This document shows positions 1 through 53,585 of a stretch of DNA of 64,000 bases, piece by piece. Position numbers and translations under genes: made by a program. Position 1 is the first letter of the stretch, and each line of letters starts with the position of its first letter. A model generated the notes under the pieces. The model did no database searches. It was not told the DNA's origin and worked only from the letters and a program-made list of their open reading frames with translations. The stretch is from NCBI GenBank assembly GCA_949358305.1, contig OX442315.1, forward strand, positions 12,924,427 through 12,988,426, read 5' to 3'. The DNA is from Strigamia acuminata (lineage: Eukaryota; Arthropoda; Chilopoda; Geophilomorpha; Linotaeniidae).

Positions 1-314
1 GTGATATGCCAGCAGTGATACCCAAACTGTTGCCAATATCGCAGAAAAGTGCAACGATTGAGTAATTTCGAACTTCAATTACATTTTCTACAACATTGTT
101 GTGCATAATAAAAAGTACCGGCATTGGAACACCAAATGCCGTATGGATTGCAAATGTTTGCACTGTGAACACCTTTTTTTGACATGGTTGAGTACACTGG
201 CAGGTTTTATCCAAATTTATTACAATTTCAATGTATTTTTGAAGGCTGCTCTTTATAATTTCCACTGAATTGCAGGCCACCATGTTGAATAAGATGTCTT
301 TCAGGAAAGGTAAC
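1..314 (-). CDS. Gene A exon 11 (partial): CxC...C region to the start of TM2 of repeat 2
   Basis: It begins after a TTTTAG acceptor and reads into the left window edge. The translation follows gene B exon 11 closely (CQCTQPC, a VIEVRNYSI block, DIGNS, then a Gly-Ile-Ser at the expected selectivity filter). About the last 30 residues lie outside the window. Confidence 0.85.
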
Positions 315-20800: not shown

Positions 20801-23800
20801 GACGGACCTGACGGGTGGCGTTCGGCACAGCAAGCGCTTTGGTTTACCCGCCACTTCGAACAGGGCGGGTCCTTGCGGGGATATCTCCGCAGGCATCGGT
20901 GGCGGAATCGGAACTCCGCTCGTCGGCGAGATCACCATTTCTACATCCTCTGCCGATTCTTCCGTCTGGATGGTCAAGGCGCGCAGTTGTTGGGTAGGCG
21001 CCGCTGTCCAGGTGGCGGAGGTATAACGAAACGCCGTGCTTCGCAACTTGTACCCCTCAAATTCGGGGTTTACCACATCCCTGGTTAGCTCGTACCGAGT
21101 CAACACAGGGTCGGGCAGAATGGAGCTCCACTCTGCGAGGAGTGCACGGGGAACCTGTACACCCTCTCTGTCCACGACAGACCATGCGGCCATCGCCTGA
21201 CGCCCTTCTCCGAAGAGTGCTGGGGTTAGCAGCTGCATCATGACCTTGGTCAATGATAGCTGTAGGCTGCGACGATTCACTGGATTCGATCGCTCCGAAT
21301 CCGCAGTGAAGGCACACGAGAGCTTACTCATCATCGCCGTTGCCCATTCGATGAAATATCGCTGGGCCTGATCCACACCTCGCAAGGCGGGCGCGGAGAC
21401 TCTTGGGTCTTCCATCACGAAGCGAAACGCTGAGAGCTCGGAGATAGTCGGATTGGCGGCTTCTCTCGCGAGTCGCGCTTCTTCGTCTCGCCTCTCGAAA
21501 AACAGGGCCGAGGAACCGGATCGGGGTTGGCTCGGCCTGTAAATGCCGGTCAAATTGGCTCGACATTCCTGCGCAATGCTCTGTCCAACGGGGAGAGGGA
21601 CTGAGCGGTCGGTGGGTAAATCCGGCGGATCGCTCGAATTCAACAACGACGGCGGCGGCAGGTTCGGAGGCGGCTGCGTCTTGGTCGGCAGCGTCGGCGT
21701 CGGCAGCGGTGGTGTTGGCTGCGTCGGCGGTGGTGGCGTCTCCGTCGTCTGCACTCCAGTCATTGCGACTTGGAGCGCCGGGAGATGTTGTCCGGAGCCT
21801 GAAGGCTGCACGATGGCGGTTGGCATGCCATCGGGTCGTGGTCGCGAATTAATGTAGTCTGCGAGCCACCTTGCCACCTCGTGTGGGGTCACCTTCCCGT
21901 CGGTGACAACACCCATCTTCCTGGCGTGTTTCATCGCGGGATCGAAACGTGTCAGTTTCGTCCGCTTCATCTGAGTCAGAATCTCGCGAAGGTCCCGCGT
22001 ATCTGCCGCTGGGACGTTTCGCTCACCTGACTGGCTACCACCTCGTCGACCCGCTCTCTTGGAGGCGTAGGCGGGTTCGGGGATGGGACGGCCCCGAGCT
22101 TCGCACCTCGCGAAGTATCGCTCTTTGCGATCTTTTTTCCGCTGCTCGCGATGAGTCAGCGGACGTCTAGAAGTGCTGGGACGAGAGACTCGCTCTTCGT
22201 CACCAGACATCCAAACCTCCTTGCACTCCTTACCGTCTTTAATCTGACGGTTTATGAAAATTCGCGGTCGGGAATACTGCGAAGGGTCACGCACCGTACT
22301 AGTGGATGGCCCAGCTTCGTTGCCTTCAGTCGTGTTTTGAGCGACACGCTGCTTCTTGGTTGTCGCTGGGGAACGCGACTGGCTGTCCCCGGCGCCTTTG
22401 GAGCGCTTGCGCTTCCGCGGGTAGCTGCTCTTGGGCCCCAAAATCCCCAGGTAGTGGAGCTGCCACATCTCGGCTTGGGACGTCAAAATTCCCATCCGAG
22501 GTCTCCACTGGGGCGTACTCTCTCCCAATCGCAGCCTCTCAAACCACAGATGAATATCATCCGCGGTCATCCCCTCGTTTTGGAGGATGCGCTCGGCCAC
22601 TGCCGTAGCGGTATCCACCAGCTGTTGTCTATAATGCTGGTAGATGGCCTCACGGGCCTCTTCTGTCTCGGCTGCTCGCCACGCATGCAGCACGTGTTCC
22701 TCCGCCGGGTTGCCAGTGTACTGACTTGACAATCCGGGGTGGAAAATCGGCGATTTCGGGTCATCGTCACGAGCTAACTCTGTGGCGATGCCTTCGCGCA
22801 TTCCCTCCGGGAACGTATCCAGGAGCGTGCAGTCTCGTACCCAACGTCGGGCGATGCATCGGGAATGTAGTATTCGCAGGCGCCAAGGGTCGGCGTCTTC
22901 GCCGAAACATCGTCGGTAAAAATCGGGCAGCGCGCCTCGAAATATCCCGCCACGAGTGATGCAAGCGGGGTCTAATGGTCCCCATGTTTTACGTAGTGCC
23001 ATCTGGAAGGATGGAGAAATAAACAATTAATAAAAAGTTAATATTTAAATACGTAGATAAATGGTTGGTTTCGAGGGACGTTGCCAGTACGTGCAGCCGT
23101 CCGTCGAGACCGATTCCTGTCTATCGGTGCAAACGTAGGACGAATTGTCCCTCGTCGGATAGAAAAAGAGAAGTCATCACGTGAAAAATCTGTCTCATGT
23201 CCAAAACGCACAGCGAGACGGAATCGAGCCTTTAATCTGGATTCTTATCATCAGATTTTACTTCAAATTAATTCTAACATTAATTAGAACATTACTAATA
23301 ATTAAATTAATAATTATCAGTCATTCGTAAAAAGAATTCGTCGGGTGTAAATTATTACTAAAATCGCACAATAAATGTGCTTGTCGAAATGTTATTAAAT
23401 AAATAAACCTAATAAAGAATTATTCCGAAGTCGGACTTTGTCTAATTTTTAAAAAAGTTAAAGTCAAATTAAATTTATCCAACACACCGAAAAATTCATC
23501 GTACGAATGTTAAGTTGCATCAATTTGATGCGTCAAATTACTTGTGGAGAAAAAATATTCTTTTACAGAATATTCTCCCCTTGTCATAAAATTATCTATG
23601 GCTCGAGCCCATTGTCTCGCTCGTGACTCAAGTCATGAGGAATTTTCGAGACGCGAGGCGACGTGAAGTCTGCGCTCGCACCTCGAAAACAAATTAACAA
23701 GGAAAAAAAATACGATCGTGTGAGCGATCGCGGTTAATAATTAATTATACGCTATTTCGAGTGCAAAGCACTCATGTCAGGTATTAGTCAACAAAATTTC

Positions 23801-26800
23801 TTCTTCAGCAGCACGGAACTAGTTCTCATGTGCCGATGCCGACTTCTACCTGATCGGGATGGACTTGGTTTACATCGCGGTCCCAGTTTTCCTCGTCCTC
23901 GTGCTCTATGGCCAGCACGTCGTTCTCTTCCTCGTCCATGGCGAGGAGCGCGCACAAAAAGCTCAATCACGATTGAAAAAAGGATGATAAAACTATCTCA
24001 AAAAACTCGATAAAAACGTTAAAAACGAGGATCACGCACGAATGCAGCGATCAGCTGTGAAAAGCGGAAGTTCGTGTGAACACGAGGTAATCGCGATGGA
24101 TTCTGGGTAATATACTCCAGAACCCGGGTGTTTGAGACTAGTGCGCACCTACCCGTGCGCATGTTACGCTACGGGTCTCCTTTGTTCTCACTCCCGTGCG
24201 CGATTGCTGCTACGGGGTCTTTTGCACGCGGTATCCGACCCGTGCCGATAATTTTGCTACGGGTCCCGCGTTTCCACGCCATCTCGTGACGCGAATTCGA
24301 CCGATATCCGCTTTGTTGGACTTAGCGAAATTTTCTGCGACGTGATGGCTTGCACTATCGGTCGATTACATTTATTTTTAGTGCCGCCATCGACTCGTAA
24401 TTTATTTTACTTCTTTCCTACGACCTTTCCGCCTTTTATGAACGGATTATCTCTTTTTGGTCGCAGGTTACGGATCGAGGCAGGTACGATATTTTTTGTT
24501 GTTTTTTGTGTCTGTACCTCCTCATTATTGTTTTCTTTTTTATCCGTGTTTTTTGTGTTTGTTTCAGGAGTTTCTCCTGTTTCCCCCCCGACCAAAATTG
24601 GATCCGGAACGGATTCAACGATCTCGTTGACCGGAGGTGAAGGGGCGTCGAAATACTCCTCGTTGTCACTTGGCGGTGCTTTTTCCGACTCGCCAGCGAA
24701 CATATCGACGATTTGGCCGTCAGTTTTAGACTTGACTTGGCCCTTGGCCCACATTTCTTGCGGGAATTCCGGAATGTACGGAGTTAACTCTCGTACTTGT
24801 ATCGACTTATGCTCGGTATTGTCCTCGAGCTTACGTAATTTATACGCGTTACCGCCATGCTTGCCGATGATCACATATGGACCATCTCTCTTGTCGGCCA
24901 AGCTGGCGGTGATTCCTCTCGCTGCATTTGAGAGGGTGTGTGCATCTTTCCACACCAAATCATTGATCTCGAAATTCACGAATTTTCCACCGCTTTTATC
25001 TTGTAAAATGCGGTCGCGCATGTTAAAAATGTGCGCCATCATATGCTTGTATGTGTTCGAAATTGTTTGCTCCAATTTATACACATACTCATGTGGTTTC
25101 TCTGGGTCCACCACATTTACCGACTCTGCCACTCGTGGGTCCCAAGGCACTCGTAGCTCTCGGGCGAAGTTGAGGTAGGCCGGAGAAAAATCTCTCGTCC
25201 TCGAGACTGTTGTTCGTATGCTGAACGCGATCTCCCTCAAGTATTCATCCCACCTATTGTGGATGTCAGTGAATATGCTTAGTGCATATTTAATGTCCCT
25301 GTTGAGTCGCTCAACGGGATTTGTTCTGGGATTGTAGGTCGAAGTATGTGACGCCACAATCCCGAATTTCTCACAAAACTTACCCCAAATTTTCGAGATA
25401 AATTGGGGTCCGTTATCGGATATTATTTTACGTGGAAATCCGTAACGTAACGCCACGTCGTAGATACATTCAACGATTTTCTCTGCTGAAGGTCTAGCGA
25501 CGGCGTACAACTCGGGCCAACGAGTTGCCACGTCCATTATAACGATAATGTACGCATTTTTATTTCCCGTAACGGGTTTTGGGCCCATCACATCGACACT
25601 TAAACAATCAAAAGGCGCGTAAGGCCCTAAGAAAATAGTTTCGAATGGTGATTTACTCCTCGGCTTGCACGCTTGACATCGCTGACATTGGTGGACAAAA
25701 AGAGCAATATCTTTTTTCATCCCTGTCCAGTGAAAAAGCTGTGTAGCACGATAGAGTGTTCTGCTTACTCCCGCATGGCTCGCAAGCGGGTGCCCGTGTA
25801 ACAACCACAGCACGCGACCGATTAAGGAAGCAGGTATTACTACCTTTACTGCGGTGTCCGATTCACTCAAGTCATCTTGGTGATTTGGGTGATGTTTCAC
25901 TAAAAGGCCGTCATCCAATAGGTAATCTATGGATTCGTGTGCATAACGACGCTTCTGCCTTCTGGTTAAGTTGGGCGGATATCTTCCTGTCAGTACGAAT
26001 CTAGCTCTGTCCTGACATTTTTTGTCTAATTTTTGTTGCACAATTATTTCCTCCCTTGTTGGGGGATTGCTTTTCATTTGCTTGCCGACACGAGCGTGGA
26101 AGGCGCTTAGAAGCGGGTCATTTATTCTCCGCTCTAGCTTAAATTCCTTCTTTGCGTTTGGGTAATTGTCAGCAGCTGGTTGGTATAACCGCGTCCAGAA
26201 TCCACAGAATTTTACGTCTGCCGGAGACGCGGTGGGAATTTCATTCATCTTCCTTAAATCCCAACGGTGACAACTCGTAGGGCAATAAATGATGCGGGAG
26301 TCATCCTCGCCATCATCGTCAGCGTCGATTGGATCTGACACTGGTGCCCGTGACAGAGCGTCAGCCACGACGTTATATTTGCCGGGCTTGTATTGAATGG
26401 TCAAGTCGCATGCCATCAGTTCTAACTGCCATCTGGCTAGTCGACCGGCTGGCTCTTTTAATTTCATCAGCCATTGTAACGCTTGATGATCTGTGTGGAC
26501 CACAAATTTGGTATATTCGAGATAATCTCTGAATTTCCTTATGGCCCACACAACGGCCAAACACTCCAACTCGGTGGCATTGTAATTCTTTTCAGCGCCT
26601 TGGAGTTTGCGACTTATAAACATGCACGGCAGGTCTTGTTCGACTCCGTCGCGCACGTGTGTTTGGAGCAACGCCGCTCCTAACCCAACTCTGCTGGCGT
26701 CCGTGTGTAATATGAACGGCCGGTTTAAGTCGGGTAGAGGCATTACGCCGACTTCCGTCAGCATCCTCTTTATTGCATTAAATGCGATGTTGCACTCATT

Positions 26801-29800
26801 TGACCATACAAATTCGTTTTCATTCTTCAGGAGGTCGGTAACTGGGGCTGCCACTTCAGCTAGACCCGGTAGCAACCTGCCGAAGAAGTTTATCATTCCC
26901 ATAAACCGTTGGACACCTTTAACGTCCTCGGGTGGTGGGAAACGATTAATCGCATCGATTTTTTCGGGGCCAATAGCTAAACCATTGACTCCAATGCGAT
27001 AACCCAGGAAGGCAAGCTCCTTTCGACAGAACTTGCTCTTGCCCGGATGCACGTGTAACCCAGCTTTTGCCAGCCGGGTGAGCACTTGGTCGATGTGCTC
27101 AATGTGCTCTTCGAATGTTTTAGAGGCAATAACTATGTCATCTAGGTATGCCCACACAAACTGATGCAGGATATCACCCAATACGCTTTCGATTAGTCTC
27201 TGAAAGGTACTGGGAGCATTCACTAAACCAAATGGCATGACGTTGAACATCAACCGTCCAATTGGCGAGTAAAATGCTGTTTTTAACTTATCCTCTGGCC
27301 TCATCTCAACTTGCCAGTATCCCTTCGACAGATCCATCGTCGTAACCCAAGAAAAGGGGCTAAGCTCTCTCAAAATGGATTCGATAGACGGCATCTGTAT
27401 GGGATCTATTTCTGTCACCGCGTTTAATGGGCGGTAATCAATGCATAGGCGTGGGTCCGAGCCCGGGCGCATCACGAGCACAACTCGCGTCGCGTATTCT
27501 CCCTGGGCCTCGGAGACAATGCCACTGTCTAGCATTTCTTGGCACATTTTTTGCACTATTTCACGTTTTTGCGGGTTCATTCCCTTATACGCAACTCGTA
27601 TAGGTTTATTATCCGTCAATTTAATTTCGTGAATAGCCCTATTCGTTCGGCCCGGTTTTTTCGACAGGATCCCCTCATATTTAAGTAGGACCCTTCGTAG
27701 GGCTGCCGCTTCGTTTAATTCTAAAGCGGCGTCGGCGACAAGCGTTTCCACTACATTGTCCCGTTGCAATTCTGTTACGAATGCTTTAAAATCGTAATCT
27801 TGAACGAATTTCTTTAGGCCTTTCTCCCACTGTGTCTTGTCGGCCGCTTCTTTTACAAGAGCTGGTGGCACGACAATTGCGGGTCTTTCCTTATCATTTC
27901 TGATATAATTCCAAGATTTCGTTATTGGATTGGGTTGTATTTCCATTGACGCCATGAGGTCTAAGCCCAACAGAAAAATTCTGTCGCATGTGGGCAGGAC
28001 CAGGAAAGGGTGCTGTTCTACTCCTCCGAGCCACTCCATGGTCAATAATATAACTCCTTTTGGACGCGCCATTCCGTTGGCGGTTTTTAGACGTATATTT
28101 TTATTAACGCCTTTTATCTTATCGGTGAGACCCAATGATGCTACTATGTCTTCGGAAACGAACGAGCGATCTGCTCCCGAGTCTAGTAGTCCCATAATTT
28201 TTTCACGTTCTATTGTCATGGGCAACATGCATAGGCGGTTGGTGTATTCGACCGCCACGTTGCACATGAAAACACGAAATTCTTCTGTGTCTTCGACTAC
28301 TTGAGGTAATTCTTCAAGCAGTAGGTTCGGTTCTTCCGCCTCAGCCTCAGCGTTTGCGGTAATTACCTGCAAAGCGTTGTTGGCCCTGTCTTGAATTTGG
28401 GCGTTAGCTATGTCACTACCCATTTCTTTGACTGGTGGCGGCTTATCGAACCCTTTGTTAAACCCCTTCTTCTTCATGAATGGCGCAGACGGTCGAGAAA
28501 TTATTTCTTCGCCGCCTGCGCTGACTCGTTTTTTGACTCGTTTTTTGCCATGGCGAGTTTAATCTCTGCCATCTGCTTCATTATCGCGTCAAACTTAGCG
28601 TCTTCTTTCGCTGTTCTTGGGCACTCATTGGAGTAGTGGCCCGGTTGGTTACACTTGAAACAGCGAATATTTGATTTGTCTCTTGGGGCTTCAGTCGATT
28701 TTTTCTTTTCAGGGTCTGCTTTCGACGGTGGCGTGTAATTTTTCCGAAAATACTTCGGAATTCGACCGGCATTTGGTTTTAACCTGGCGCGAAATTCTTC
28801 TACCGCTCTATCTCGATGGATGAGATGTACTAGCGGTCCTTCCTCATCGCAACCCGTTGATAAGGTATCGCGATAGCTTCGTATTTCTTCGTCCGTCGAA
28901 TAATCGTCTTTTTCTTCTTTTTCGTCTGATTTTCCGACATTTTGTTCGGCTTCCTCCCCCTCCTTGACCTCCTCCAGTGTCGCTTGCATGGCTGACGCTG
29001 TCGGTGCCTTTTTAGGGGCGGCCAAAGGGTTGGAAGGCAGCGGGGATGTCAGTTTATTTTTTATTTGCAAACCAACGCTAGCTTCTGCCAGCTCCATTAT
29101 ACCGCTAAGATATTCAGTAGGGCGCATAATCTTATCTGTCGCCCCATATCTTTCCGCACTCAACTTGAGACGTTTTGCGGTCGCTGCTTTCTCCGCTTCT
29201 GGTAAAGCGGAATAATATCTCTTCTCGATATCTATCGTGTTCTCGAACAGGAAGGCGCTCATCTCCTCGTAGCTACCTCCTGTCGGTGCCCTTTCTTCAA
29301 GTAGCACCCTTTGCGAGTATTCCGACAAACCGCCGAGAAAGAAAAGGTTGAATCCCGTGGCGTGAAATTCCATCGGGGCCTTTTCGAACAACAATCTGGC
29401 GCGAATGTCGTAATCCATTATGGTTTCACCAGGCATCTGGCGAAGACCTCGCATCTTTCGGCTCACCTCTTCGGGTGTCTCGCCGTAGCGCAGGTCGAAT
29501 CTCATTAAAAAGTCGTCCCAATTGACGCCTTTCAATCCTTGGTACCACTCACGTGCCGAGCCTGTCATTAGCTCGACAATACCGTGGGTGAGCATGTCTC
29601 CTACGGTGGCTTTAGTGGCAGTCTTAATTCGAATTACTTCGTCAAGGAAGCGATCTCCCGCTTTCCATGACCCGTCGAAACGGTTCTGAATATAAAATTG
29701 CCACCTAATATTCCCGGTAACACTCATGGTGTCACGTCGGGAGACAGCGTATTTTTTCTTTACGCGGTCGCCAGTGCTACGATTACGATCGTTTCGTTTG

Positions 29801-32800
29801 CTCAGATCGATTCCCTCGGCCTTCAACGAGCCGAGTAGGGCTCTTCCAAGCTCTCCCATCGTATACTGCCGACCCGTCGAATCGGTAAACGCGCTTTGTC
29901 GGGGAAGGTCCTGAAACTCCTCCCGTCGGTGGTCGCTATTTTCCGATCGACGTCGTTTCTCTCTATCGCGCGGAGAGTTGGATCTCTTCCGGCGATTACT
30001 TGATTTCTCCTTTCGTCTGTCGTCGTTGGATGAGGGGTCGGAGCTGGGGTCGGGAGACGGTGAGCGGCGTGGCGGGTTGCGCCGTGAAGAGTTTGACTCT
30101 TTCCGGCCCCTACGACGGTCGTCACGTTCCCTTTCCCTGCGTTCATCGCGTTCTCTTTCCCTTCGTCTTTCTCCGGAACCTCTCTCCGAATCGTGATGAC
30201 TGGGTGCATTTGACTCCAGTCCATCTGACGACGAATCACTATTTCCGTAGTGATAATATTTCGGTCTTTCATCGCGTTTGCCTTCTTCTCGCGAAGAGGT
30301 GCGATCATGCGATTGTCTCCTTGACGACTCGTCGTCTTTAAGGATGGGCACTGGTTGTTGCCACTCAGTCCCTTGCGGATTATCTTGCTGTTGGCTTGTG
30401 AGAGCTTGCTCTTCATTTCGCCTAGCATTATTAGCGTTGATTAACCGCGTTATCGCATTATTTGTGGCTGAATCGAGAGCTTGCATGCGGGGCCGAGTTT
30501 GTTGTTCTCTGGCCGACGCATCTCTCTTGCGCGGAGTAGCTGGTGTTGCCCTCTCCGGCTGGGGTTTGGGTTTGGCCTTCGGCGTGCGCTTTGGGTCTCC
30601 CTCTAGGCTCTCGTCGGACAGCTCGGATGAACTGACCTCTGGTTTGCGAACGGATTTCGGGTCATCTCGTCGCAATCTGGCCATAAATGCTCGCTCTGCT
30701 TCTTGTTGCGAGTGGAAAGCATATCGATGTGCTCTCAGGGCTCGGTCAACTATTTCTACCTCCTCGGGAGTAGTCGGATTGGGCTGGGTTCTGCCGTACT
30801 CGAGAGCTTGCGCTTCTCTTTCCGCCAGCTTCCTCCGTCTCTCGCGAATGGCTTGTCGAGCCTCATTCTCTGCATCCGCTTCAAATTGAGCGGAATCAAC
30901 CAATTGTTGAGCGTGTGCACCTTCAACAATGGTGATTTGTGGGGATACACTGTGCGCTTTTAAAGCTGCACGTACGATTTGTAACGTTTCGTACACGGTA
31001 ATCTTCCCCGTCGGAAGGGTGTATCTCACTCCCTCCGCTTGTGCCAACTGCATCGCATCAATCAAGGTGCCCGAGACGCTGTAAGGCTGGCTTGAAACAC
31101 GCTTGACAGAGGACGAGTTGGACTTGTGCCCTTCAGACACTACCGAGGCTGGTCGACTGTGCGTAACTGGCGTGTTTAGTGCCGAATTAGCGGTCGTATT
31201 TGAGGCCGTCTTTTGTATCGGAGACGCTGCTTTCGGACTGCCCACCTCGGTGTCGTGCGTTAGACGAGGCGATTGGTTACGGGATAAAACCTCGTTTCCG
31301 CTCGTCTCGCCGTCACGGTTAGAACGCGGCAGTTTGGAGTGAGATTGCTCTTCACCCCGCTCTGTCTCGTCCAATCGCTGCCTCGTCTCGGTGCGAGACG
31401 GGTGCGATGCCTCGGATGCGCTTCTACGATCGGGTTTAGGCTTACGCCGTTTTTGCCTCGCTTCGTGCGCTGAGGCTTTGGGTAAGGGACCTCCAGATCG
31501 CAAGTGATAGTCGGCGCCTTTACGACTGCCGGCTCTCTTGTTTGCGTCGGAGTCGGAATCTGTTACTCGGGTATTATCTGCCATTTCTTGCTTTGGGTAT
31601 GATGTAATCACAGGTTAGAATCAGTTATTCGACTTGATCCCGGACAGGCCCCCACGTGTCGCGCTCAACTCTAACCGTCGCTAACTCGTGGGTTGATTAC
31701 TTAATTCGACTAACTCACTACCGCTTTGCTCAAGCGGTTTACCCAAAGAAATGATTACACAGATATAAAAGGTAAAATATAATATAGATTTATTCTGCGG
31801 GGCAATGTACAGATATATCTTATATATATATCTATAAAGGGTAAGTAAAATGTAAATCGGAATGGGTGATGGGAAATGGAAAGGCAAAGGTAAGATGAAA
31901 GCTGGCTGGAATCGGCGAGGTCGTCTGTTGTCTCGTGCGTGTCCAAGATGGCGTCCTCGTTGTAGCAACGTGATGTCGTCTTGGGCCGGCGTGGCAATAT
32001 GGCGTCCTCGGCTCGTCTCTGGCTGGTCCTTCGGGCTCACGCTGGTCGGGCGCGAGTGAATGCTTAGTTAAAAGGCTTACTTCGGTCTGTTGTCTAGGTT
32101 TTTGTGTGGTGTCCGGCGATCACACAGCGGCGGACTCTTCTGGCTCCCGGCGGTCACACAGCGGCGGGAACGCTCGTCGTGGTTTTACTGCAGTTTAGGC
32201 TTGTGCGACCGTTTGTCTGCACAACTCGCTAAACTGGAGTGGTTTTTACTATTTCTAGCTGGTGTGCTAAAATAGTGTGGTAATCTTATCTCGCAGGTTA
32301 CTCTGCGGAGTTTGACACTGACCAAACGTACTCACGGTAAATTGTCCTTTGTCCTTGGTCAATCCCAGTATATTTACTTGGGCCTGATCTTGTAGGACGA
32401 CGGGTTTTACGTGTGTTTCTCGTTTGATGGTTGTGTTGGTTCTGCCCGCTCAGTGCAAGGCACATTCCTTTGCACAAAGCGGGGTTGACAGGTGACCGGA
32501 ATCACCCAATGGTGGGGTGGACGAGCCATCCCCACTCCCTCAGGGCAGACGCCTGTCCATTGACTAGATGTCAATGCACTGAGGGAAGGGAGACGCGCTT
32601 GCGGCTCCCCTTACACCCGAAACGAGGTCACGAGAGAAACTCTTCGTTGACCCCGGTCCAGTCGGGTCACAACACACTGCGCGGATTTGAGCGTGCGGAC
32701 TGCGTATCCGCAAAGTAGATGAGAGCGGGTTCACACTACCATCGCAAATCTCTAGCCGTTTTTAGTCCAAACAATCCCACAATTCCTAAACCAAAGATGG

Positions 32801-35691
32801 CGTCGAATTTAGAATTTTTGCGCCTTGTAACTGTTCAAATAATGGCAATTGTGCACAAAATGAGAAGGAAAAAAGCAACTAGACACAAATACTGGGTTCG
32901 ACCCATTTGAAATCACCAATGTTAAAACGGGGCGCCATGTTTGAAACATAACGTCATCAGATGCCTCTTAATTGGCTGCGGAAAAATAGAAATAAATCCT
33001 ACTTATAAAATCCGCCGCGAATTCGCATTTTCAGCAGAAAGTGATGTCACAAACGTCATTTTTAGGCCCGTATCCGCAAGTGTGACGACATTGCGGCCAT
33101 AATCCAATCCCTTTACCATCAACTATCAACTCCACCTGGCGTGGTGGGGTTGGACTAGGCCATATGGGTTTTGTGTTGTTTGAATATGCAAACGCGTGTG
33201 ATTTTTTTTACCGCTTTCAAAATATTGTAAGTTAAAACGCACTTTTATAAATCACCATTTAACTGCACGCCCACATTTGTTGTTTTAGTACATACCGAAA
33301 ACCGAGCTTTTAAATACAGCAAATACTTGTACCTCTACAGTTTTTAGATATATTCCAACGATATCTAATTGCGCTATGCTCCACAGATATTCCAAAGTGA
33401 ATTTTGGTTTAAAAAGCCATAAATCGACCAATTGCACCTCGCACCAACTCGTGAAATTGGTCTTTTTCTCAGCAGTTTTTTTCTTAAAATACTTCATCTT
33501 CATGAAAGTAATTTGTGGAGACGGAGCACACGCAGTAAGTGATGGAAAAGCTATTTTCTCCATGTAGTTCACCGTGACCACATTGCGCGTTGGATACGTG
33601 AAATAATAGAAAATGCGGTTTTGAATCATGAAAAGACACAAACTCATACAAATGAGCAAAATTGCATTCTTCAGATATTTCTGCCCGCTCGATTTCAATA
33701 TTTTGCTTTCAACTTGACTGGTGCATTCTTTGTAGTTCTTCTCTATTATTGACAGTTGTTTAGTTTTCATCGTCTTTTGTTGAAGCTGTTTTCTGATAGT
33801 CTTTACAATTGCAATCCAAATTTCAGCAATAGATAACACGGATAGACCCAAGTAAAGTCCCAAATTGCCACCAATGTCCACGAATAAGCTGATTAAATCG
33901 TATTGTAGACGTTCATTTAACACCATTTCGGTACTATCGCCTTCAATTACAAATATCGAGTCATTTAAGCTCCCGTGGTGTTGCGGAACCATGGCTATAG
34001 AATATGTGTTTTGGGTACACACAGTGGGGCATTTGCAGAGCCTGCTTGAGTACACTTTAGGTATGACAGTCACATTAAGAGCTGCAGCTAAATTGTTTGC
34101 TGAATCTTGCCAATCACTAGAATTGCAAGGAGGATGATTGATGCTCCAATGGAAAAATGGAAATCTGTTTATTTTGTTTGAAAAAATAAATAAATTAGCT
34201 GAATGGTCTGCTGCAGCAAAGAGTTCCACAATATTACCTGCAAGTTGTCAGTTTTTTAATTCTATTGACCACGCATGTTCTGTAACATTTTTCAAATTCC
34301 TCGTTGTTATTGGTACATGGTGTTCCAGGTCTATCGATGAAATTGTACTAAAAATATATATATAAATATAATTTATTTTAATTGTAAATGATTATTTTTG
34401 TAAATCAATCACTTTTCTCAATGCGAGTCGCACTGCAATATTAATATTGCTCGGTACTGGCATAAAGTAATAAAAATCGACGTTGTTTTTAATAGTAAGC
34501 TGAAAAAATATGTTGTGGCGTTGTTGTAGTGAATTTGGTTTTATTTGAGGGCTTACCGTTGGCATGCAATACTTGTATTTTCGGATAACGAGTTTCAGCG
34601 CTGTTCTGGATACGTCGGTTTCTGAAATACGATTTCAGTTTGATACAACGCACATGACAGAAGTTCACATATTTGCTTACTTGATGGTTCAAAATTTGAA
34701 CAATATCCCAGTATCGTTGTTTCCGATTTTATTGTGACATTCTTAAGTATAAAAGTATTCAGTTATATTATTTGCACATTAAAAAATGCATTTGACTAAT
34801 AATAATATTGGGAATGCATTTCATAATTAGTTTTATAAAACGTATTTTTATTTGCAATCCAAAGGCATCCAAAAATGGATTACAAAATGCAGTCTTGAAA
34901 CCCAATGCAAGGATAACATGGACTCATATCCGTGTGTTCATTTTTCTACCGCACTGTATTCTGGGATGAAAAATGTAACAAACATGCTTAGTTGGCAAGC
35001 AATTAATGACACGTGATTGCTGTCATCCAATCGGCGCACGGAACAACGAAGCAATAGGAAATAACACACGGATGCGGGTCCAAATTATCCTTCGTTCATG
35101 GATGAAGTGATTTTGCAACTAACTCATGTATTAGATTGCAGTTTTCAAGCCTAAATAATCATAGTGCATATTGAGGCCACAATTTTGTACTCACGTGCTT
35201 AAATTCAAAATCCTTCAAGGCACTCCGGGTGTTTGTAAAGTTCCAAATTGAATTGTAATCCACATCGCTGTTGTATTGTATGATTTTGAAATAGGGCATT
35301 ATTCTACTGAACTGGTCTCCCATACCTCGTTTTTCTAAAAGGTTAAAGTTGTAATCATTTTCAAATATGCAAACCTGCATGTCTGGCATTTGAAATAAAG
35401 ATGTGTAGTCAAAATGAATATCGACTGCTAAAGGATATGTGTAGTAAAAGGAAATTCTTTCCACCGTTTGGTATAGACAAAGCGACGAGCAGCAAATGAG
35501 CAAAATGGCCAAAATAAAACGCGTGTAAATCGAGTTGTTGGAATCGAACAAATCATTAAACTCTTGTGGCAATTCGACAACATTTTCTCTGTCATAATTG
35601 GAAATATGTCTTCGAATACTATGACGAAGCGCTTTTTGTGCCACATTTGATGTATGGTTGCAGTTCATTTTGTGACATCCAATTGGTAGAT
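11464..35691 (-). CDS. Gene B: two-repeat DEG/ENaC-family cation channel, complete model
   Basis: Eleven exons: 35195-35668 (acceptor at 35692), 34681-34741, 34557-34621, 34413-34499, 34238-34347, 33333-34164, 14336-14417, 13857-13957, 12550-12657, 11917-12023 and 11464-11857. Their lengths sum to 2421 bases, 807 codons with the TAA stop, with no phase conflict. Predicted layout: TM1a about residues 51-68, TM2a about 357-384, a basic linker of about 50 residues, TM1b about 432-448, TM2b about 764-788. It would sit in the plasma membrane with both ends and the linker inside. Intron 6 (18.9 kb) contains the retrotransposons E1 and E2. Gene A is the nearest paralogue. Whether the long intron is still spliced properly is unknown. 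Confidence 0.85.
11917..12023 (-). CDS. Gene B exon 10: repeat 2 cysteine-rich ectodomain
   Basis: 107 bases, phase 0 to 2. It encodes NPCIDKTEFDECRKNC and ends at a GTAATA donor; same size and cysteine spacing as gene A exon 10. Confidence 0.8.
12075..12531. mobile_element. MITE with 8-bp target duplication
   Basis: Terminal inverted repeats TAAGCCTGCTATTTTTGCGG at both ends and an exact 8-bp duplication GCAATAAT (12067-12074, 12532-12539), as in hAT-like elements. The interior has ATTGGCC/GGCCAAT inverted motifs and a repeated CGTCCGCAATA-type motif. Intron 9 of gene B; absent from gene A, so it inserted after the duplication. Confidence 0.85.
12550..12657 (-). CDS. Gene B exon 9: repeat 2 ectodomain
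   Basis: 108 bases, phase 0 to 0, acceptor TTTAG and donor GTAAGT; conserved with gene A exon 9. Confidence 0.78.
12785..13334 (+). mobile_element. Solo LTR, family S (copy 1)
   Basis: Starts TGTTATCG and ends CCAGTCACA, with an exact 4-bp duplication AAAC on both sides (12781-12784, 13335-13338). Shares its 3' half with 37694-38279 (CTAGACAACG, AAAGGCCAA, GGAGTC, TGAGTATG, AAGACCATA-like blocks). Located in intron 8 of gene B. Confidence 0.7.
13355..13856 (-). other. Rest of gene B intron 8
   Basis: No gene seen. A run of 17 G lies near 13759-13775. Confidence 0.6.
13857..13957 (-). CDS. Gene B exon 8: repeat 2 ectodomain
   Basis: 101 bases, phase 1 to 0, acceptor CCACAG and donor GTAAAA. 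Three bases longer than gene A exon 8, so in-frame. Contains LNCEKCYYE. Confidence 0.75.
13958..14335 (-). other. Gene B intron 7
   Basis: AT-rich intron without recognisable structure. Confidence 0.6.
14336..14417 (-). CDS. Gene B exon 7: repeat 2 ectodomain
   Basis: 82 bases, phase 0 to 1, acceptor TTTTTAG and donor GTACTG. The only stretch here with a conserved frame relative to gene A exon 7 (NES.IPT.LGNC). It lies just left of the retroelement-filled intron 6. Confidence 0.7.
14559..15144 (+). repeat. E1 5' LTR
   Basis: 586 bp. Promoter-like TATTTAA near 14739, AATAAAA poly(A) signal near 15084. Contains perfect hairpins at 14627-14647 (8-bp stem) and 14891-14909 (7-bp stem, nested within an 8-bp outer stem). 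Confidence 0.92.
15147..15164 (+). promoter_or_regulatory. E1 primer-binding site, tRNA-Pro-like
   Basis: TGGGGGCCTGTCCGGGAT lies two bases inside the 5' LTR. It differs at two positions from the tRNA-Pro primer-binding site known from murine leukaemia-type retroviruses and is identical to the E2 site. Confidence 0.75.
15231..18017 (+). CDS. gag: E1 Gag polyprotein
   Basis: 928 codons from the first ATG (15231). The N-terminal third is basic and disordered, with two sets of tandem repeats (two to three copies of a 23-residue unit, then about five of a 17-residue unit). The centre is acidic and Gln/Asn-rich. A Ty3-type capsid-like region spans roughly residues 585-750, with FDGTWRAGNKFL and GEAREWY blocks. 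A single CCHC zinc knuckle (CNYCNEVGHWRRDC) sits near residue 885. It would form the particle shell and bind RNA. The core is clearly related to E2 Gag (FDGSWKAGDRFL, AREWY). The N-terminal repeats are absent from E2. Confidence 0.92.
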   Translation: MTKSNKKTRNPSTASARRKAMESAKARAEALASPALDKLPPESTKRNTIGKTPIDKNNADKLPPESTKRNTIGKTPIDKNNANKLPPESTKENIVGKTPIGKTPNHAEKTSVGHTPIGKTPNHAAKTSVGHTPIGKTSNHAEKTSVGHTPIGKTPSHAEKTSVGHTPIGKTPNHAEKTSVGQTPINKTSTKPQPDPPINNKQINFTDEVEEDSDKSQDGYSLFDKYDNNQSNRVTITHGYNSSKSQINRCREAYEIARLMGIPYDEEGDPLAQLDMILRLTRERAEKRAIRQGKKAVKRQKTNNQTTDSYDSTRTSSDADDESEADSLDSKGINVQGWASIVDEPVEVQNEFLEAFQQDSRNNRGRQSWAFAQSFAAKAGHTSQTPNDPNSEMIRLINQKNQVRNQQGQDRLAMPSLEDIRTVKANVDAANEAAKTKIKTANDAEREAARINSQLHGERKSTIRIKQNNGVLSGTAVNGIFPPGTQLAATSPNLTNQNSPQHQNSSQNHQFLPQNGNISPSYGSQSQSDPILEERLRMIEEHIRADSRTGRNQDLDERDEQNENLLRKYSADRWALDNKDRNIKWPQLRLMKFDGTWRAGNKFLNEVALTISRLGAEPDEMVVKGLPEMLVGEAREWYVEANLKYWEQFVVAFNTQYGETQKEIRQRVSLMQQATGEELRAYFLRAKSLFNELYTPLDAYAQRLIFDKGLNEASKKVLRDMNAPTTDSFEQLLKFVDKRHEEVNDRYTDALTPEERKLVQLRIQRIHARNNDAGRLIRSRTFLNGDIEAAPPKKPSDKSTSNPIPAPKAYRASTNSDATNLEDGRESEEDDSEQNSEGDANKTEHHNPKSDKHYEKRDFTKRSFTRTENSTTRPCNYCNEVGHWRRDCPKRKKRKEEKKAAENEALLEKLTAKFEELTKNWLKQTEKK
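15339..15785 (+). repeat. Two tandem repeat arrays in the E1 gag 5' region
   Basis: A 69-bp unit is repeated about 2.5 times (15339-15530) and a 51-bp unit about five times (15531-15785). Both keep the reading frame. The shared element is GATTGGAAAAAC encoding IGKT. Near-identical copies indicate recent expansion. Confidence 0.9.
18014..18364 (+). CDS. E1 candidate -1 frame extension of Gag
   Basis: In the -1 frame relative to gag, the sequence stays open from the GAGAAAAAATAA at the gag stop to a TAG at 18362-18364 (about 115 codons). The predicted peptide is highly charged and ends with a Ser/Pro/Arg-rich stretch. Its position matches that of pol in E2 and E3, which also lie in -1 after gag. 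It could be a C-terminal extension made by frameshifting or a decayed remnant; no domain is recognised. Confidence 0.4.
   Translation: MNLSARPEDRTPNRTTNETINQAINEIITEEIDKLKIELDNKETSDSDSEDELKTKWKNTNWLEKQIKELQTKIAYFTTAYFTTEKLKYRGSTTGRRRTTPPPSMSALKESLERKM
18444..19029 (+). repeat. E1 3' LTR
   Basis: 586 bp, apparently identical to the 5' LTR, followed by the AACT target duplication. Confidence 0.93.
19183..20200 (-). repeat. E2 3' LTR
   Basis: 1018 bp; the internal neighbour at 20201-20212 reads GGAGGGGGAAG on the minus strand, a typical polypurine tract. Contains ACCGCTT/AAGCGGT and CATTGAC/GTCAATG hairpins. Confidence 0.94.
20237..23002 (-). CDS. E2 third ORF: long accessory protein of unknown function
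   Basis: About 921 codons starting at the ATG at 23002, which directly abuts a strong splice acceptor (pyrimidine-rich, CCTTCCAG, then ATG). This suggests expression from a spliced subgenomic mRNA, as envelope genes of Ty3-type retroviruses are. The protein shows no signal peptide or membrane segment, so it does not look like an envelope. Residues 1-200 may be folded; a basic PRKRKRSK signal near residue 200 suggests nuclear entry; the middle is Pro/Thr-rich; the C-terminal part has a Pro-rich linker before a basic segment. I do not recognise a family. Confidence 0.85.
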   Translation of the reverse strand: MALRKTWGPLDPACITRGGIFRGALPDFYRRCFGEDADPWRLRILHSRCIARRWVRDCTLLDTFPEGMREGIATELARDDDPKSPIFHPGLSSQYTGNPAEEHVLHAWRAAETEEAREAIYQHYRQQLVDTATAVAERILQNEGMTADDIHLWFERLRLGESTPQWRPRMGILTSQAEMWQLHYLGILGPKSSYPRKRKRSKGAGDSQSRSPATTKKQRVAQNTTEGNEAGPSTSTVRDPSQYSRPRIFINRQIKDGKECKEVWMSGDEERVSRPSTSRRPLTHREQRKKDRKERYFARCEARGRPIPEPAYASKRAGRRGGSQSGERNVPAADTRDLREILTQMKRTKLTRFDPAMKHARKMGVVTDGKVTPHEVARWLADYINSRPRPDGMPTAIVQPSGSGQHLPALQVAMTGVQTTETPPPPTQPTPPLPTPTLPTKTQPPPNLPPPSLLNSSDPPDLPTDRSVPLPVGQSIAQECRANLTGIYRPSQPRSGSSALFFERRDEEARLAREAANPTISELSAFRFVMEDPRVSAPALRGVDQAQRYFIEWATAMMSKLSCAFTADSERSNPVNRRSLQLSLTKVMMQLLTPALFGEGRQAMAAWSVVDREGVQVPRALLAEWSSILPDPVLTRYELTRDVVNPEFEGYKLRSTAFRYTSATWTAAPTQQLRALTIQTEESAEDVEMVISPTSGVPIPPPMPAEISPQGPALFEVAGKPKRLLCRTPPVRSVEQTKPTPPGTSPARAATSTQAVIPAATQKPKPAPPPPDYYGRIIDEFPHLSMTTATRRFILAQRDKGKSVFIWLHNQIRKTKDLIFHQRLLRAHRAPVTPAEANAIRHTNTGFSAYIPSVWLHERTRAPHEPVDGHALCFITEHEDPRDRSSALVGDLPAPPGTQPPVPGVSYAQVTDSVSGPPGKK
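23027..24406 (-). other. E2 spacer between pol and the third ORF
   Basis: Non-coding. It is rich in short inverted repeats, for example AATATTCT/AGAATATT near 23554-23574, GAGTGC/GCACTC near 23760 and TCAATC/GATTGA near 23960. It ends with the splice acceptor for the third ORF at about 23003. Confidence 0.6.
24407..28477 (-). CDS. pol: E2 Pol polyprotein (protease, RT, RNase H, integrase)
   Basis: 1356 codons from the ATG at 28477, but the frame is open back to the slippery sites at 28528-28546, so translation is most likely as a Gag-Pol fusion. Order: aspartic protease (LDSGADRS, about residue 100), reverse transcriptase with a CIDYRPLN block and YLDD active site, RNase H (HTDAS...), integrase with an HHCC finger (H..H..CQRC), catalytic Asp in SVDVMGP, Asp in SDNGPQF and Glu in NPVERLN, then a GPY/F-type module (KRDGPY). 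Uninterrupted. The C-terminal tail is acidic then basic; no chromodomain is recognised. Confidence 0.96.
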   Translation of the reverse strand: MKKKGFNKGFDKPPPVKEMGSDIANAQIQDRANNALQVITANAEAEAEEPNLLLEELPQVVEDTEEFRVFMCNVAVEYTNRLCMLPMTIEREKIMGLLDSGADRSFVSEDIVASLGLTDKIKGVNKNIRLKTANGMARPKGVILLTMEWLGGVEQHPFLVLPTCDRIFLLGLDLMASMEIQPNPITKSWNYIRNDKERPAIVVPPALVKEAADKTQWEKGLKKFVQDYDFKAFVTELQRDNVVETLVADAALELNEAAALRRVLLKYEGILSKKPGRTNRAIHEIKLTDNKPIRVAYKGMNPQKREIVQKMCQEMLDSGIVSEAQGEYATRVVLVMRPGSDPRLCIDYRPLNAVTEIDPIQMPSIESILRELSPFSWVTTMDLSKGYWQVEMRPEDKLKTAFYSPIGRLMFNVMPFGLVNAPSTFQRLIESVLGDILHQFVWAYLDDIVIASKTFEEHIEHIDQVLTRLAKAGLHVHPGKSKFCRKELAFLGYRIGVNGLAIGPEKIDAINRFPPPEDVKGVQRFMGMINFFGRLLPGLAEVAAPVTDLLKNENEFVWSNECNIAFNAIKRMLTEVGVMPLPDLNRPFILHTDASRVGLGAALLQTHVRDGVEQDLPCMFISRKLQGAEKNYNATELECLAVVWAIRKFRDYLEYTKFVVHTDHQALQWLMKLKEPAGRLARWQLELMACDLTIQYKPGKYNVVADALSRAPVSDPIDADDDGEDDSRIIYCPTSCHRWDLRKMNEIPTASPADVKFCGFWTRLYQPAADNYPNAKKEFKLERRINDPLLSAFHARVGKQMKSNPPTREEIIVQQKLDKKCQDRARFVLTGRYPPNLTRRQKRRYAHESIDYLLDDGLLVKHHPNHQDDLSESDTAVKVVIPASLIGRVLWLLHGHPLASHAGVSRTLYRATQLFHWTGMKKDIALFVHQCQRCQACKPRSKSPFETIFLGPYAPFDCLSVDVMGPKPVTGNKNAYIIVIMDVATRWPELYAVARPSAEKIVECIYDVALRYGFPRKIISDNGPQFISKIWGKFCEKFGIVASHTSTYNPRTNPVERLNRDIKYALSIFTDIHNRWDEYLREIAFSIRTTVSRTRDFSPAYLNFARELRVPWDPRVAESVNVVDPEKPHEYVYKLEQTISNTYKHMMAHIFNMRDRILQDKSGGKFVNFEINDLVWKDAHTLSNAARGITASLADKRDGPYVIIGKHGGNAYKLRKLEDNTEHKSIQVRELTPYIPEFPQEMWAKGQVKSKTDGQIVDMFAGESEKAPPSDNEEYFDAPSPPVNEIVESVPDPILVGGETGETPETNTKNTDKKENNNEEVQTQKTTKNIVPASIRNLRPKRDNPFIKGGKVVGKK
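28501..31584 (-). CDS. gag: E2 Gag polyprotein
   Basis: 1027 codons from the ATG at 31584. A long charged, RS/RE-rich disordered N-terminal half (arginine-serine tracts around residues 450-560) precedes a capsid-like core (FDGSWKAGDRFL, AREWYQ, RYGETPEE) and a CCHC knuckle (CFKCNQPGHYSNEC) close to the C-terminus. Shares the core with E1 Gag. The stop TAA at 28501-28503 follows two slippery heptamers. Confidence 0.94.
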   Translation of the reverse strand: MADNTRVTDSDSDANKRAGSRKGADYHLRSGGPLPKASAHEARQKRRKPKPDRRSASEASHPSRTETRQRLDETERGEEQSHSKLPRSNRDGETSGNEVLSRNQSPRLTHDTEVGSPKAASPIQKTASNTTANSALNTPVTHSRPASVVSEGHKSNSSSVKRVSSQPYSVSGTLIDAMQLAQAEGVRYTLPTGKITVYETLQIVRAALKAHSVSPQITIVEGAHAQQLVDSAQFEADAENEARQAIRERRRKLAEREAQALEYGRTQPNPTTPEEVEIVDRALRAHRYAFHSQQEAERAFMARLRRDDPKSVRKPEVSSSELSDESLEGDPKRTPKAKPKPQPERATPATPRKRDASAREQQTRPRMQALDSATNNAITRLINANNARRNEEQALTSQQQDNPQGTEWQQPVPILKDDESSRRQSHDRTSSREEGKRDERPKYYHYGNSDSSSDGLESNAPSHHDSERGSGERRRERERDERRERERDDRRRGRKESNSSRRNPPRRSPSPDPSSDPSSNDDRRKEKSSNRRKRSNSPRDREKRRRSENSDHRREEFQDLPRQSAFTDSTGRQYTMGELGRALLGSLKAEGIDLSKRNDRNRSTGDRVKKKYAVSRRDTMSVTGNIRWQFYIQNRFDGSWKAGDRFLDEVIRIKTATKATVGDMLTHGIVELMTGSAREWYQGLKGVNWDDFLMRFDLRYGETPEEVSRKMRGLRQMPGETIMDYDIRARLLFEKAPMEFHATGFNLFFLGGLSEYSQRVLLEERAPTGGSYEEMSAFLFENTIDIEKRYYSALPEAEKAATAKRLKLSAERYGATDKIMRPTEYLSGIMELAEASVGLQIKNKLTSPLPSNPLAAPKKAPTASAMQATLEEVKEGEEAEQNVGKSDEKEEKDDYSTDEEIRSYRDTLSTGCDEEGPLVHLIHRDRAVEEFRARLKPNAGRIPKYFRKNYTPPSKADPEKKKSTEAPRDKSNIRCFKCNQPGHYSNECPRTAKEDAKFDAIMKQMAEIKLAMAKNESKNESAQAAKK
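28528..28546 (-). promoter_or_regulatory. E2 gag-pol -1 frameshift sites, duplicated
   Basis: Two copies of A_AAA_AAC (minus-strand, 28528-28534 and 28540-28546), both in the gag frame, 12 bases apart. This is a classic -1 slippery heptamer. From either site the -1 frame runs open into pol. Confidence 0.85.
31637..31654 (-). promoter_or_regulatory. E2 primer-binding site, tRNA-Pro-like
   Basis: The minus strand reads TGGGGGCCTGTCCGGGAT two bases inside the 5' LTR, identical to the E1 site. Confidence 0.75.
31657..32674 (-). repeat. E2 5' LTR
   Basis: 1018 bp, apparently identical to 19183-20200; followed on the right by the target duplication CACT. Confidence 0.94.
32679..33332 (-). other. 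Right-hand part of gene B intron 6
   Basis: No gene. A segment near 33110-33180 matches 8235-8300 (CAACTCCACCTGG...GGGTTGGACT...GGTT), so it is a dispersed repeat. GTATCCGCAA occurs at both 32703 and 33069. Confidence 0.5.
33333..34164 (-). CDS. Gene B exon 6: TM2 of repeat 1 fused to TM1 of repeat 2
   Basis: One open exon of 832 bases, phase 2 in and 0 out (acceptor AAACAG, donor GTACAA). In order: CKCPTVC; YDLISLFVDIGGNLG and TM2 with LGLS and AEI; a cytosolic linker of about 50 residues; a second TM1; FYYFTYP; and a new ectodomain start with a conserved WC.VQL block. It is nine bases shorter than gene A exon 6, all in-frame. Two paralogues keeping this fusion open through substantial protein divergence argues that it is translated. 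Confidence 0.9.
34238..34347 (-). CDS. Gene B exon 5: repeat 1 cysteine-rich ectodomain
   Basis: 110 bases, phase 0 to 2, acceptor TTTTAG and donor GTAATA; encodes PC...FEKCYRTC, matching gene A exon 5 in length and cysteine spacing. Confidence 0.8.
34413..34499 (-). CDS. Gene B exon 4: repeat 1 ectodomain
   Basis: 87 bases, phase 0 to 0, acceptor TTTTTCAG and donor GTGATT; conserved YYFMP and VRL-LRK blocks with gene A. Confidence 0.75.
34557..34621 (-). CDS. Gene B exon 3: repeat 1 ectodomain
   Basis: 65 bases, phase 1 to 0, acceptor ATTTCAG and donor GTAAGC. A longer ORF in another frame overlaps it but contains a stop in gene A, so this frame is preferred. Confidence 0.72.
34681..34741 (-). 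CDS. Gene B exon 2: repeat 1 ectodomain
   Basis: 61 bases, phase 0 to 1, donor GTAAGC; conserved with gene A exon 2, including the N-x-T sequon. Confidence 0.72.
34742..35194 (-). other. Gene B intron 1
   Basis: AT-rich, no recognisable element. Longer than the 59-base intron 1 of gene A. Confidence 0.6.
35195..35668 (-). CDS. Gene B exon 1: N-terminus and TM1 of channel repeat 1
   Basis: 158 codons, donor GTGAGT. TM1 at about residues 51-68, then FYYTYP. Both paralogues conserve an acceptor (TTTTTCAG here, CTTTCAG in A) 23 bases upstream of the ATG and an open, similar frame across those bases. The true start may therefore lie in a further 5' exon not identified here. Confidence 0.85.
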
Positions 35692-42908: not shown

Positions 42909-43338
42909 AGATTCCGCAATTGCAAAGGGGCACAGTCTATATCGTGCTGAAACTTAGAACTACGGGTTCATCCAGAGTGAGATAAAGGAATGTTTGATTG
43001 TTTATTTAGATGTGATAGTTTGAGTTGAGAGTAAGGTTTTGTTGTTGTTTGTATTTGCTGTGAGTATTGGTTTGTGATCCCAGAATTATCAGATACTCTA
43101 TGTTGATTCCAACTGCCAAAAAGTTTACTGAAATATGGATATACAAGTACTGCTGTTTCTTGTGTGTTGCTGTTGCAGTTTTTATAACTTAATATTAATA
43201 TTTTATGTGTTTACACTTTCAAACTAAAATTATAAATTCGATTTGGAAGAAACCTGTCAGGAGAAAGAAAATAATAACACTGAAAATGAGGCATCATTTT
43301 GACAAGCTAGAATTAAAAAATACAAAGTGTTTGAGTGG
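42909..43338. other. Non-coding region left of E3
   Basis: No feature recognised; a 71-codon ORF at 43205-43420 runs into the LTR and is not supported. Confidence 0.5.
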
Positions 43339-53120: not shown

Positions 53121-53585
53121 TGATGAGATTGTAGGCGCCGGACATCAGGAAAATAGAGCTGAGACATGATTTAATGGGTGCGGGAACTCGCATTGCGCGA
53201 CCGCCATCTTTAATCGTCACGAACCACAGTAAAAACGACTGCTTTGAGGCTAGCCGCCCTCAAAGTATGAATACAAGCTTACAATAGAACAAATCATTGT
53301 TAGCAAGCAATGATTTGTCCTTTACATGATAAACAATAAGGGAGGAGCAAATAAGCGATAAACAACTCAAAAGCAATGGAAAAACTAAACGAATATTGCT
53401 CATTTGAGCGGACGACGAGAAGGCACATCTTTACAAGTAAATAAACTAGTTGCGGCACATAACAAGCAGGGTAAAAATCAGGATCAACTAGTTTAACTAA
53501 GTCACAGCAAAGTAAAGACATGCACGTTGCATTTAGCCATAAATATGCAACTAATAAATCTCAAACAGTTGGGCATATCCCAACA
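53121..53585 (-). repeat. E4 3' LTR
   Basis: 465 bp, TG...CA on the minus strand. Carries a CTTTGAGG.../CCTCAAAG hairpin near 53243-53266 and TCATTG/CAATGA near 53293-53312. Confidence 0.93.

Follow-up and report, generated by a model that had tools for sequence, protein, structure and literature searches.

A 64,000-nucleotide stretch of the genome of the centipede Strigamia acuminata (contig OX442315.1, positions 12,924,427 to 12,988,426 of the forward strand; the window in what follows) carries two neighbouring paralogous genes of the DEG/ENaC channel family, here termed A and B, each of which almost certainly holds two channel units in one open frame. Within a single exon of either gene, the second transmembrane helix (TM2) of unit 1 is followed by a linker, presumably cytosolic, and by the first transmembrane helix (TM1) of unit 2. 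The usual layout of the family is one unit per chain, which is not part of the Pfam definition. As predicted from genomic DNA, the product of gene B is very probably one chain of 806 amino acids, with a predicted mass of ~93 kDa before glycosylation.

Two channel units in one open frame, shared by two paralogues

The junction between the units is encoded by exon 6 of gene B, whose exact bounds are 34164-33333 on the minus strand (acceptor aaacag/ATTTCC, donor GTAGAG/gtacaa). The frame in use contains no stop, versus 14 and 23 in the other two frames. In order, the exon encodes the end of the unit 1 ectodomain, TM2, the linker, TM1 of unit 2 and the start of the second ectodomain with the motif FPSLTAC. 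The TM2 of unit 1 coincides with a hydropathy peak at residues 368-386 and carries DIGGNLGLYLGLS. The stop-to-stop frame containing this exon matched the Pfam family ASC (PF00858) at 48.5 bits in two stretches, the gathering cut-off being 23.6 bits. The counterpart exon of gene A (5792-4952) has an identical layout and 63% identity to exon 6.

When the full gene B product was considered, unit 1 (residues 1-392) scored 57.8 bits and unit 2 (residues 398-806) 43.3 bits against ASC. Three single-exon frames lie under the cut-off: exon 11 of gene B (21.2 bits), exon 1 of gene A (22.5 bits) and the exon 11 part of gene A (18.5 bits). Hydropathy peaks of the gene B product at residues 51-69, 368-386, 433-451 and 774-792 describe two transmembrane helices around a cysteine-bearing ectodomain in each unit; a weaker fifth peak (724-742; 1.55) within the unit 2 ectodomain is taken to be a buried strand. 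Profiles of unit 1 and unit 2, each pooled from A and B, aligned over 313 columns with a probability of 98.1% and 28% identity.

The original prediction, made from the letters of the window, had proposed a single stop-free exon that joins a TM2 bearing a GxS motif to a second TM1, together with flanking exons that finish both units in phase, and had suggested a profile search for two ASC domains in one protein. The exact coordinates, the open frame and the ASC matches agree with all of this, both units exceeding the Pfam cut-off. The linker, described there as basic and about 50 residues long, is indeed basic (10 K/R versus three D/E over the 44-residue span 384-427), but its length in gene B is 42 residues (387-428).

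The intron structure points to the origin of the tandem. The intron phases are 0,1,0,0,2 in unit 1 and again 0,1,0,0,2 in unit 2. Measured from landmarks picked in both units, four of the five intron positions agree to 0 or 1 residue: one intron falls 16 residues past a Trp in both units (142 to 158; 527 to 543), another 6 (unit 1) and 5 (unit 2) residues past the Cys of Gly-x-Cys, another 11 residues ahead of the Cys of Pro-Cys in both units, and the phase-2 intron within the Arg codon right after the Cys of CR(F/L)PF in both. For the third of the five, order and phase are the same in both units, but the spacing to the following landmark differs by 7 residues. Because intron phases and positions recur in this way, we infer that a six-exon single-unit gene was duplicated in tandem and that the last exon of copy 1 came to be joined with the first exon of copy 2, presumably with loss of the intervening DNA.

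Gene B comprises 11 exons (35668-11464, minus strand) that form one uninterrupted frame of 806 codons, closed by a stop. Gene A, likewise on the minus strand, runs from 9290 to the left edge of the window, where it ends inside the TM2 of unit 2 after 782 codons without a stop. Across 779 aligned codons, 492 substitutions were counted between the two genes, whose proteins are 68% identical, and the ratio of nonsynonymous to synonymous differences per site (pN/pS) is 0.52 (interval 0.43-0.62) for the whole, 0.46 (0.35-0.60) for unit 1 from TM1 to TM2, and 0.51 (0.39-0.69) for unit 2; the synonymous divergence (dS) is 0.48 in unit 1 and 0.43 in unit 2. Random placement of 492 substitutions on the gene B frame produced a mean of 16.2 stops, and none of 3000 runs was stop-free, in a crude model that puts every change on the gene B sequence alone. 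The substitution pattern indicates that both units have been under purifying selection since the A/B duplication. Since dS is also similar in the two units, the whole fused gene was presumably copied at once into A and B, after the fusion, and then kept. The shared layout of the paralogous exon, together with the lack of any random run that stayed open, places the junction beyond chance; and because the paralogue keeps this layout under purifying selection, the two-unit architecture is better supported than the original prediction knew.

Pore residues and proposed assembly of the chain

The pore of PDPNaC1, which together with BRTNaC1 stands nearest among the solved relatives, provides a reference: Asp372 forms the upper and Gly375 the lower constriction (the latter equivalent to Gly436 in cASIC1a), Gly378 is assigned to selectivity and Ser376 is a likely proton site (PMC12714832). 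By alignment with PDPNaC1, the pore of unit 1 reads D-I-G-G-N-L-G...GLS, and that of unit 2 reads D-I-G-N-S-L-C...GIS in gene B and D-I-G-N-S-L-G...GIS in gene A. The GxS motif of TM2 is thus kept in both genes (GLS for unit 1, GIS for unit 2). The second Gly of D-I-G-G, present in unit 1, is Asn in unit 2 of both genes, and the family profile is still matched. Unit 2 has this Asn at the lower constriction and a Ser at the position of PDPNaC1 Ser376; in gene B, moreover, a Gln replaces the TM2 Glu of PDPNaC1 and BRTNaC1. Between A and B, the pore segment of unit 2 has a pN/pS of 0.32 (0.11-0.86; 39 codons) and is no less conserved than the rest.

In the explanation favoured here, each gene would be translated as one chain with four transmembrane helices, both ends and the linker being cytosolic, and each unit would fold as a DEG/ENaC subunit. 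The covalent pair would then occupy two positions in a trimeric cation channel, and the remaining position would fall to a single unit from a second chain or to an independent subunit of one unit. We assign a probability of roughly 0.45 to this arrangement, in which one chain supplies two of the three trimer places and the third unit comes from elsewhere. If both units share the pore, the link would fix an asymmetric, heteromeric pore of set composition, since the fused units differ in their pore residues (DIGG...GLS versus DIGN...GIS). Taken more broadly, the two genes on balance appear rather likely to specify a natural, selected two-unit subunit, whose covalent link either fixes an asymmetric pore and recruits a third unit or gives rise to a double-barrelled six-unit channel.

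The original prediction had held that two units cannot tile one trimer. The arithmetic is correct, but as an obstacle it falls away, because an engineered two-unit ASIC1a conducts: head-to-tail fusions of two, three or four ASIC1a subunits gave typical ASIC1 currents, the linker of the two-unit form being one Asn and seven Gln (PMC4529235). Similarly, three-unit ASIC concatemers with 19-residue linkers are described as functional trimers (PMC10329638). By analogy, it is plausible that a chain of two units forms a channel.

Several observations weigh against, or lend little to, an intact chain that supplies two places of a trimer. Smaller bands accompanied the ASIC1a fusion proteins, which their authors read as cleavage or incomplete synthesis, and surface ASIC1a was argued from cross-linking to be homotetrameric (PMC4529235); for both reasons, the currents of the two-unit construct are not clean proof of trimer filling. 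No gene for a single-unit partner was found by tblastn within the 64-kb window. The departures of unit 2 in the pore would also fit a unit outside the conducting pore. In the linker (residues 384-428, 45 codons), where A and B differ by one indel of six bases and share 33% identity, pN/pS is 0.82 (0.51-1.51) and indistinguishable from 1, and under neutrality the linker stayed open in 17% of 20,000 runs with 49 substitutions; on both counts the linker itself proves little. Finally, exon 6 contains no strong donor (GTRAG) or acceptor (six pyrimidines-NYAG) by patterns of low power, which recover 4 of the 10 own donors of gene B, 3 of 10 in gene A and one of 10 own acceptors in each gene, so that this null says little, most of the genes' own sites being missed.

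The two-plus-one trimer is ranked above two alternatives of equal standing, paired pores and a unit 2 outside the pore, which are followed in descending order by separate products, a tetramer and an artefact. In the paired arrangement, three two-unit chains would build a six-unit complex with two side-by-side trimeric pores, one of unit 1 and one of unit 2. Three chains do provide three copies of each unit, an even sum, the divergence of the pores would be expected if each unit packs with its own kind, and the linker of 42-44 residues looks long enough for either arrangement. Such a complex nevertheless seems unlikely, since we know of no solved DEG/ENaC structure with paired pores (no search for one was made). 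Nor is it needed for the typical currents of the engineered two-unit ASIC1a (PMC4529235). To the same degree doubtful is a channel whose pore is lined by a single unit, probably unit 1 as the more typical of the two, while unit 2 acts as a tethered regulatory or decoy subunit. Such a role would suit the Asn in place of the second Gly of DIGG in A and B, the Cys (B) or Gly (A) at the position of the PDPNaC1 selectivity residue Gly378 (PMC12714832), the Gln of gene B in place of the TM2 Glu found in PDPNaC1 and BRTNaC1, and the lower Pfam score of unit 2 (43.3 versus 57.8 bits), but a unit 2 pore segment as conserved as the rest (pN/pS 0.32), with its Asp and GxS kept, argues otherwise.

It is improbable that the units are expressed apart, through an internal start or alternative transcript ends, with exon 6 merely a shared exon. 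Each linker does contain at least one AUG and is poorly conserved, and the low power of the splice-motif check leaves room for alternative splicing. The AUGs, however, occur at differing places, at residue 398 in gene B and at residues 390, 402 and 404 in gene A, and none coincide; the first Met common to A and B is residue 439, inside TM1. Moreover, exon 6 lacks an in-frame stop and contains neither AATAAA nor ATTAAA in either gene. A tetrameric channel made of two two-unit chains is very unlikely, the known structures of ASIC and ENaC being trimeric. A two-unit chain would tile four places evenly, and a homotetramer has been argued for ASIC1a (PMC4529235), but PDPNaC1 is a homotrimer (PMC12714832). 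An assembly artefact, a pseudogene or a chance joining of frames is scarcely credible: the region is full of recent long terminal repeat (LTR) retrotransposons and intron 6 of gene B spans 18.9 kb, but the junction recurs in a second gene at a dS of 0.45, which would be far beyond allelic difference, and both frames are free of internal stops where 16.2 would be expected neutrally, with pN/pS below 1.

Gene models and mobile elements of the window

The exon models were built from colinear conserved blocks, obtained by blastn of the left 11.4 kb against the remainder of the window, and the splice sites were chosen by eye with the paralogue as guide. Each of the 10 introns of gene B, like each of the 10 that the window covers in gene A, begins with GT and ends with AG, partly by construction, since GT-AG was in part a criterion in picking the sites; the weight of the predicted models rests on the matching phases, the open frame and the substitution pattern. 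Exon 1 of gene B has 75.9% protein identity to that of gene A. An acceptor-like CAG occurs 23 bases upstream of the first ATG in both genes (35669-35691; 9291-9313), and for this reason both probably have an unmodelled 5' exon and a possibly longer N-terminus. An AATAAA lies 176 bases past the stop TAA of gene B.

Table 1. Coordinates of the modelled exons and encoded features of genes A and B in the window.
Feature	Position	Strand	Remarks
Gene B exon 1: tail at the N-terminus, TM1 and beginning of the unit 1 ectodomain	35195..35668	-	donor gtgagt; ASC match; start codon provisional
Gene B exon 2 (unit 1)	34681..34741	-	AG/GT ends, phase 0 to 1; block conserved in gene A
Gene B exon 3 (unit 1)	34557..34621	-	AG/GT ends, phase 1 to 0; block conserved in gene A
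Gene B exon 4 (unit 1)	34413..34499	-	AG/GT ends, phase 0 to 0
Gene B exon 5 (unit 1, several cysteines)	34238..34347	-	AG/GT ends, phase 0 to 2
Gene B exon 6, junction exon	33333..34164	-	unit 1 ectodomain end and TM2, linker, unit 2 TM1 and ectodomain start
Unit 1 pore motif DIGGNLGLYLGLS, residues 362-374	33840..33878	-	aligned with PDPNaC1 D372-S384
Linker, TM2 of unit 1 to TM1 of unit 2, residues 387-428, 42 amino acids	33678..33803	-	
TM1 of unit 2, residues 433-451	33609..33665	-	hydropathy peak
Gene B intron 6, ~18.9 kb	14418..33332	-	two LTR retrotransposons inside
Gene B exon 7 (unit 2)	14336..14417	-	AG/GT ends, phase 0 to 1; block conserved in gene A
Gene B exon 8 (unit 2)	13857..13957	-	AG/GT ends, phase 1 to 0
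Gene B exon 9 (unit 2)	12550..12657	-	AG/GT ends, phase 0 to 0; exon region 85.6% identical in DNA to gene A
Gene B exon 10 (unit 2, several cysteines)	11917..12023	-	AG/GT ends, phase 0 to 2; exon region 84.0% identical in DNA to gene A
Gene B exon 11: unit 2 ectodomain end, TM2, short tail, stop TAA	11464..11857	-	ASC score of the single-exon frame below the cut-off
Unit 2 TM2 motif DIGNSLCVTAGIS, gene B exon 11	11583-11545	-	
Gene A exon 1	8817..9290	-	
Gene A exons 2-5	7747..8757	-	8757-8697, 8630-8566, 8009-7923, 7856-7747
Gene A exon 6	4952..5792	-	same TM2-linker-TM1 junction; linker 5428-5297, 44 amino acids
Gene A exons 7-11	1..2661	-	2661-2580, 2166-2069, 1412-1305, 1246-1140, 314-1; exon 11 cut by the window edge

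Two cysteines of gene B are replaced in gene A: Cys197 of unit 1 (exon 3, 34566-34568) by Ser, and Cys774 in the TM2 of unit 2 (exon 11, 11563-11565) by Gly. A reading of A and B as allelic or haplotype copies was ruled out by the dS of 0.45.

The window is eukaryotic and rich in LTR retrotransposons, and those inside intron 6 of gene B account for its length. One of them (19179-32675) is a Ty3/gypsy-like element with gag and pol frames, whose terminal repeats are 99.9% identical over 1023 bases; its extra frame of 929 amino acids (20240-23026, minus strand) gave no Pfam match at E <= 0.001. The second (14556-19029) has terminal repeats that are 99.8% identical over 589 bases and a gag-like plus-strand frame of 934 amino acids, the start of which encodes short repeats; its zinc knuckle scored above the Pfam cut-off and its gag domain just below, and no long pol-like frame was present in the list of open reading frames. 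An origin of the gene fusion through retrotransposons was considered and set aside, on the reasoning that exon 6 is coding throughout and is shared by gene A, in which intron 6 is only ~2.3 kb long.

Beyond the two genes, a Copia-type LTR retrotransposon (53606-58306, minus strand) carries one open frame of 1567 amino acids and lies between terminal repeats (53122-53585 and 59388-59851) with 100% identity across their 464 bases. The polyprotein matched the Pfam family MBD, the methyl-CpG-binding domain, at 41.5 bits (cut-off 21) at residues 987-1041, between the integrase and reverse-transcriptase regions; as a guess, this domain might steer integration to methylated DNA. The Copia element lies inside what is apparently a larger gypsy-like element (43338-64000), with direct repeats at 43338-44638 and 62700-64000 that are 99.8% identical, the second of which reaches the window edge. 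An extra frame of 503 amino acids in the larger element (60443-61951) had no Pfam match at E <= 0.001.

Relation to known channels

To our knowledge, few arthropod DEG/ENaC chains have been solved. Among the solved chains, the centipede channel BRTNaC1 is nearest to both units (57.1 bits for unit 1 and 58.1 bits for unit 2), followed by PDPNaC1 (55.9 and 37.7 bits), and the best ASIC or FaNaC match reached 22.9 bits for unit 1 and 28.1 bits for unit 2. BRTNaC1 (PDB 8ymr and others) and PDPNaC1 (PDB 9jf7) each consist of one unit of 421-431 amino acids, in contrast to the two units per frame described here, and they also differ from unit 2 in having DIGG rather than DIGN. The same Asp and the GxS motif of TM2 are shared with PDPNaC1. 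The His-Gly motif before TM1 is absent from the modelled N-terminal tail and from the linker in both genes; since PDPNaC1 is likewise reported to lack it (PMC12714832), the motif does not define this branch.

A limited search of titles and abstract starts found no description of a natural two-unit DEG/ENaC protein. At the protein level, the exon 6 frame gave only weak matches among 720 candidates (E 2.2, 6.3 and 8.8), all to ASC-domain proteins of 336-513 amino acids, one of them named Musca vetustissima pickpocket 19-like. The full 806-residue chain had no match at E <= 1 among the best 8000 candidates by shared words, and the 607-residue part of gene B that aligns with gene A, a query chosen so that single-unit and two-unit proteins both had an allowed length, had none at E <= 10 among the best 7998. 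These protein searches depend on shared 5-residue words, and the last two scored only the candidates that share most of them; for that reason they cannot show absence. Two heptapeptide patterns gave 94 pattern matches in viral contigs, none of which was a relative. Predicted proteins that carry two ASC domains do occur in public databases, and gene models merged in error are frequently suspected behind them. Within this limited search, the DEG/ENaC family and laboratory concatemers are known, and a natural, paralogue-conserved two-unit gene appears to be new; priority is not claimed.

The closest man-made counterparts are the engineered ASIC concatemers (2ASICFP, PMC4529235; ASIC2a-3, PMC10329638), which are likewise composed of head-to-tail subunits with a cytosolic linker. 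Their linkers measure 8 or 19 residues, whereas the present arrangement is natural, has linkers of 42-44 residues and joins units that are 28% identical. The availability of two paralogues reveals which positions are conserved and which are variable. Either a two-plus-one or a double-barrelled assembly, if true, would represent a mode that limited searches did not turn up for this trimeric family. Duplication and fusion of a channel subunit within one gene is familiar from the K2P and two-pore channels. These, however, are tetrameric classes, in which two units divide evenly, whereas DEG/ENaC channels are generally held to be trimeric; since trimers are odd-numbered, a natural two-unit subunit would constitute a test case for the number, order and stoichiometry of DEG/ENaC subunits.

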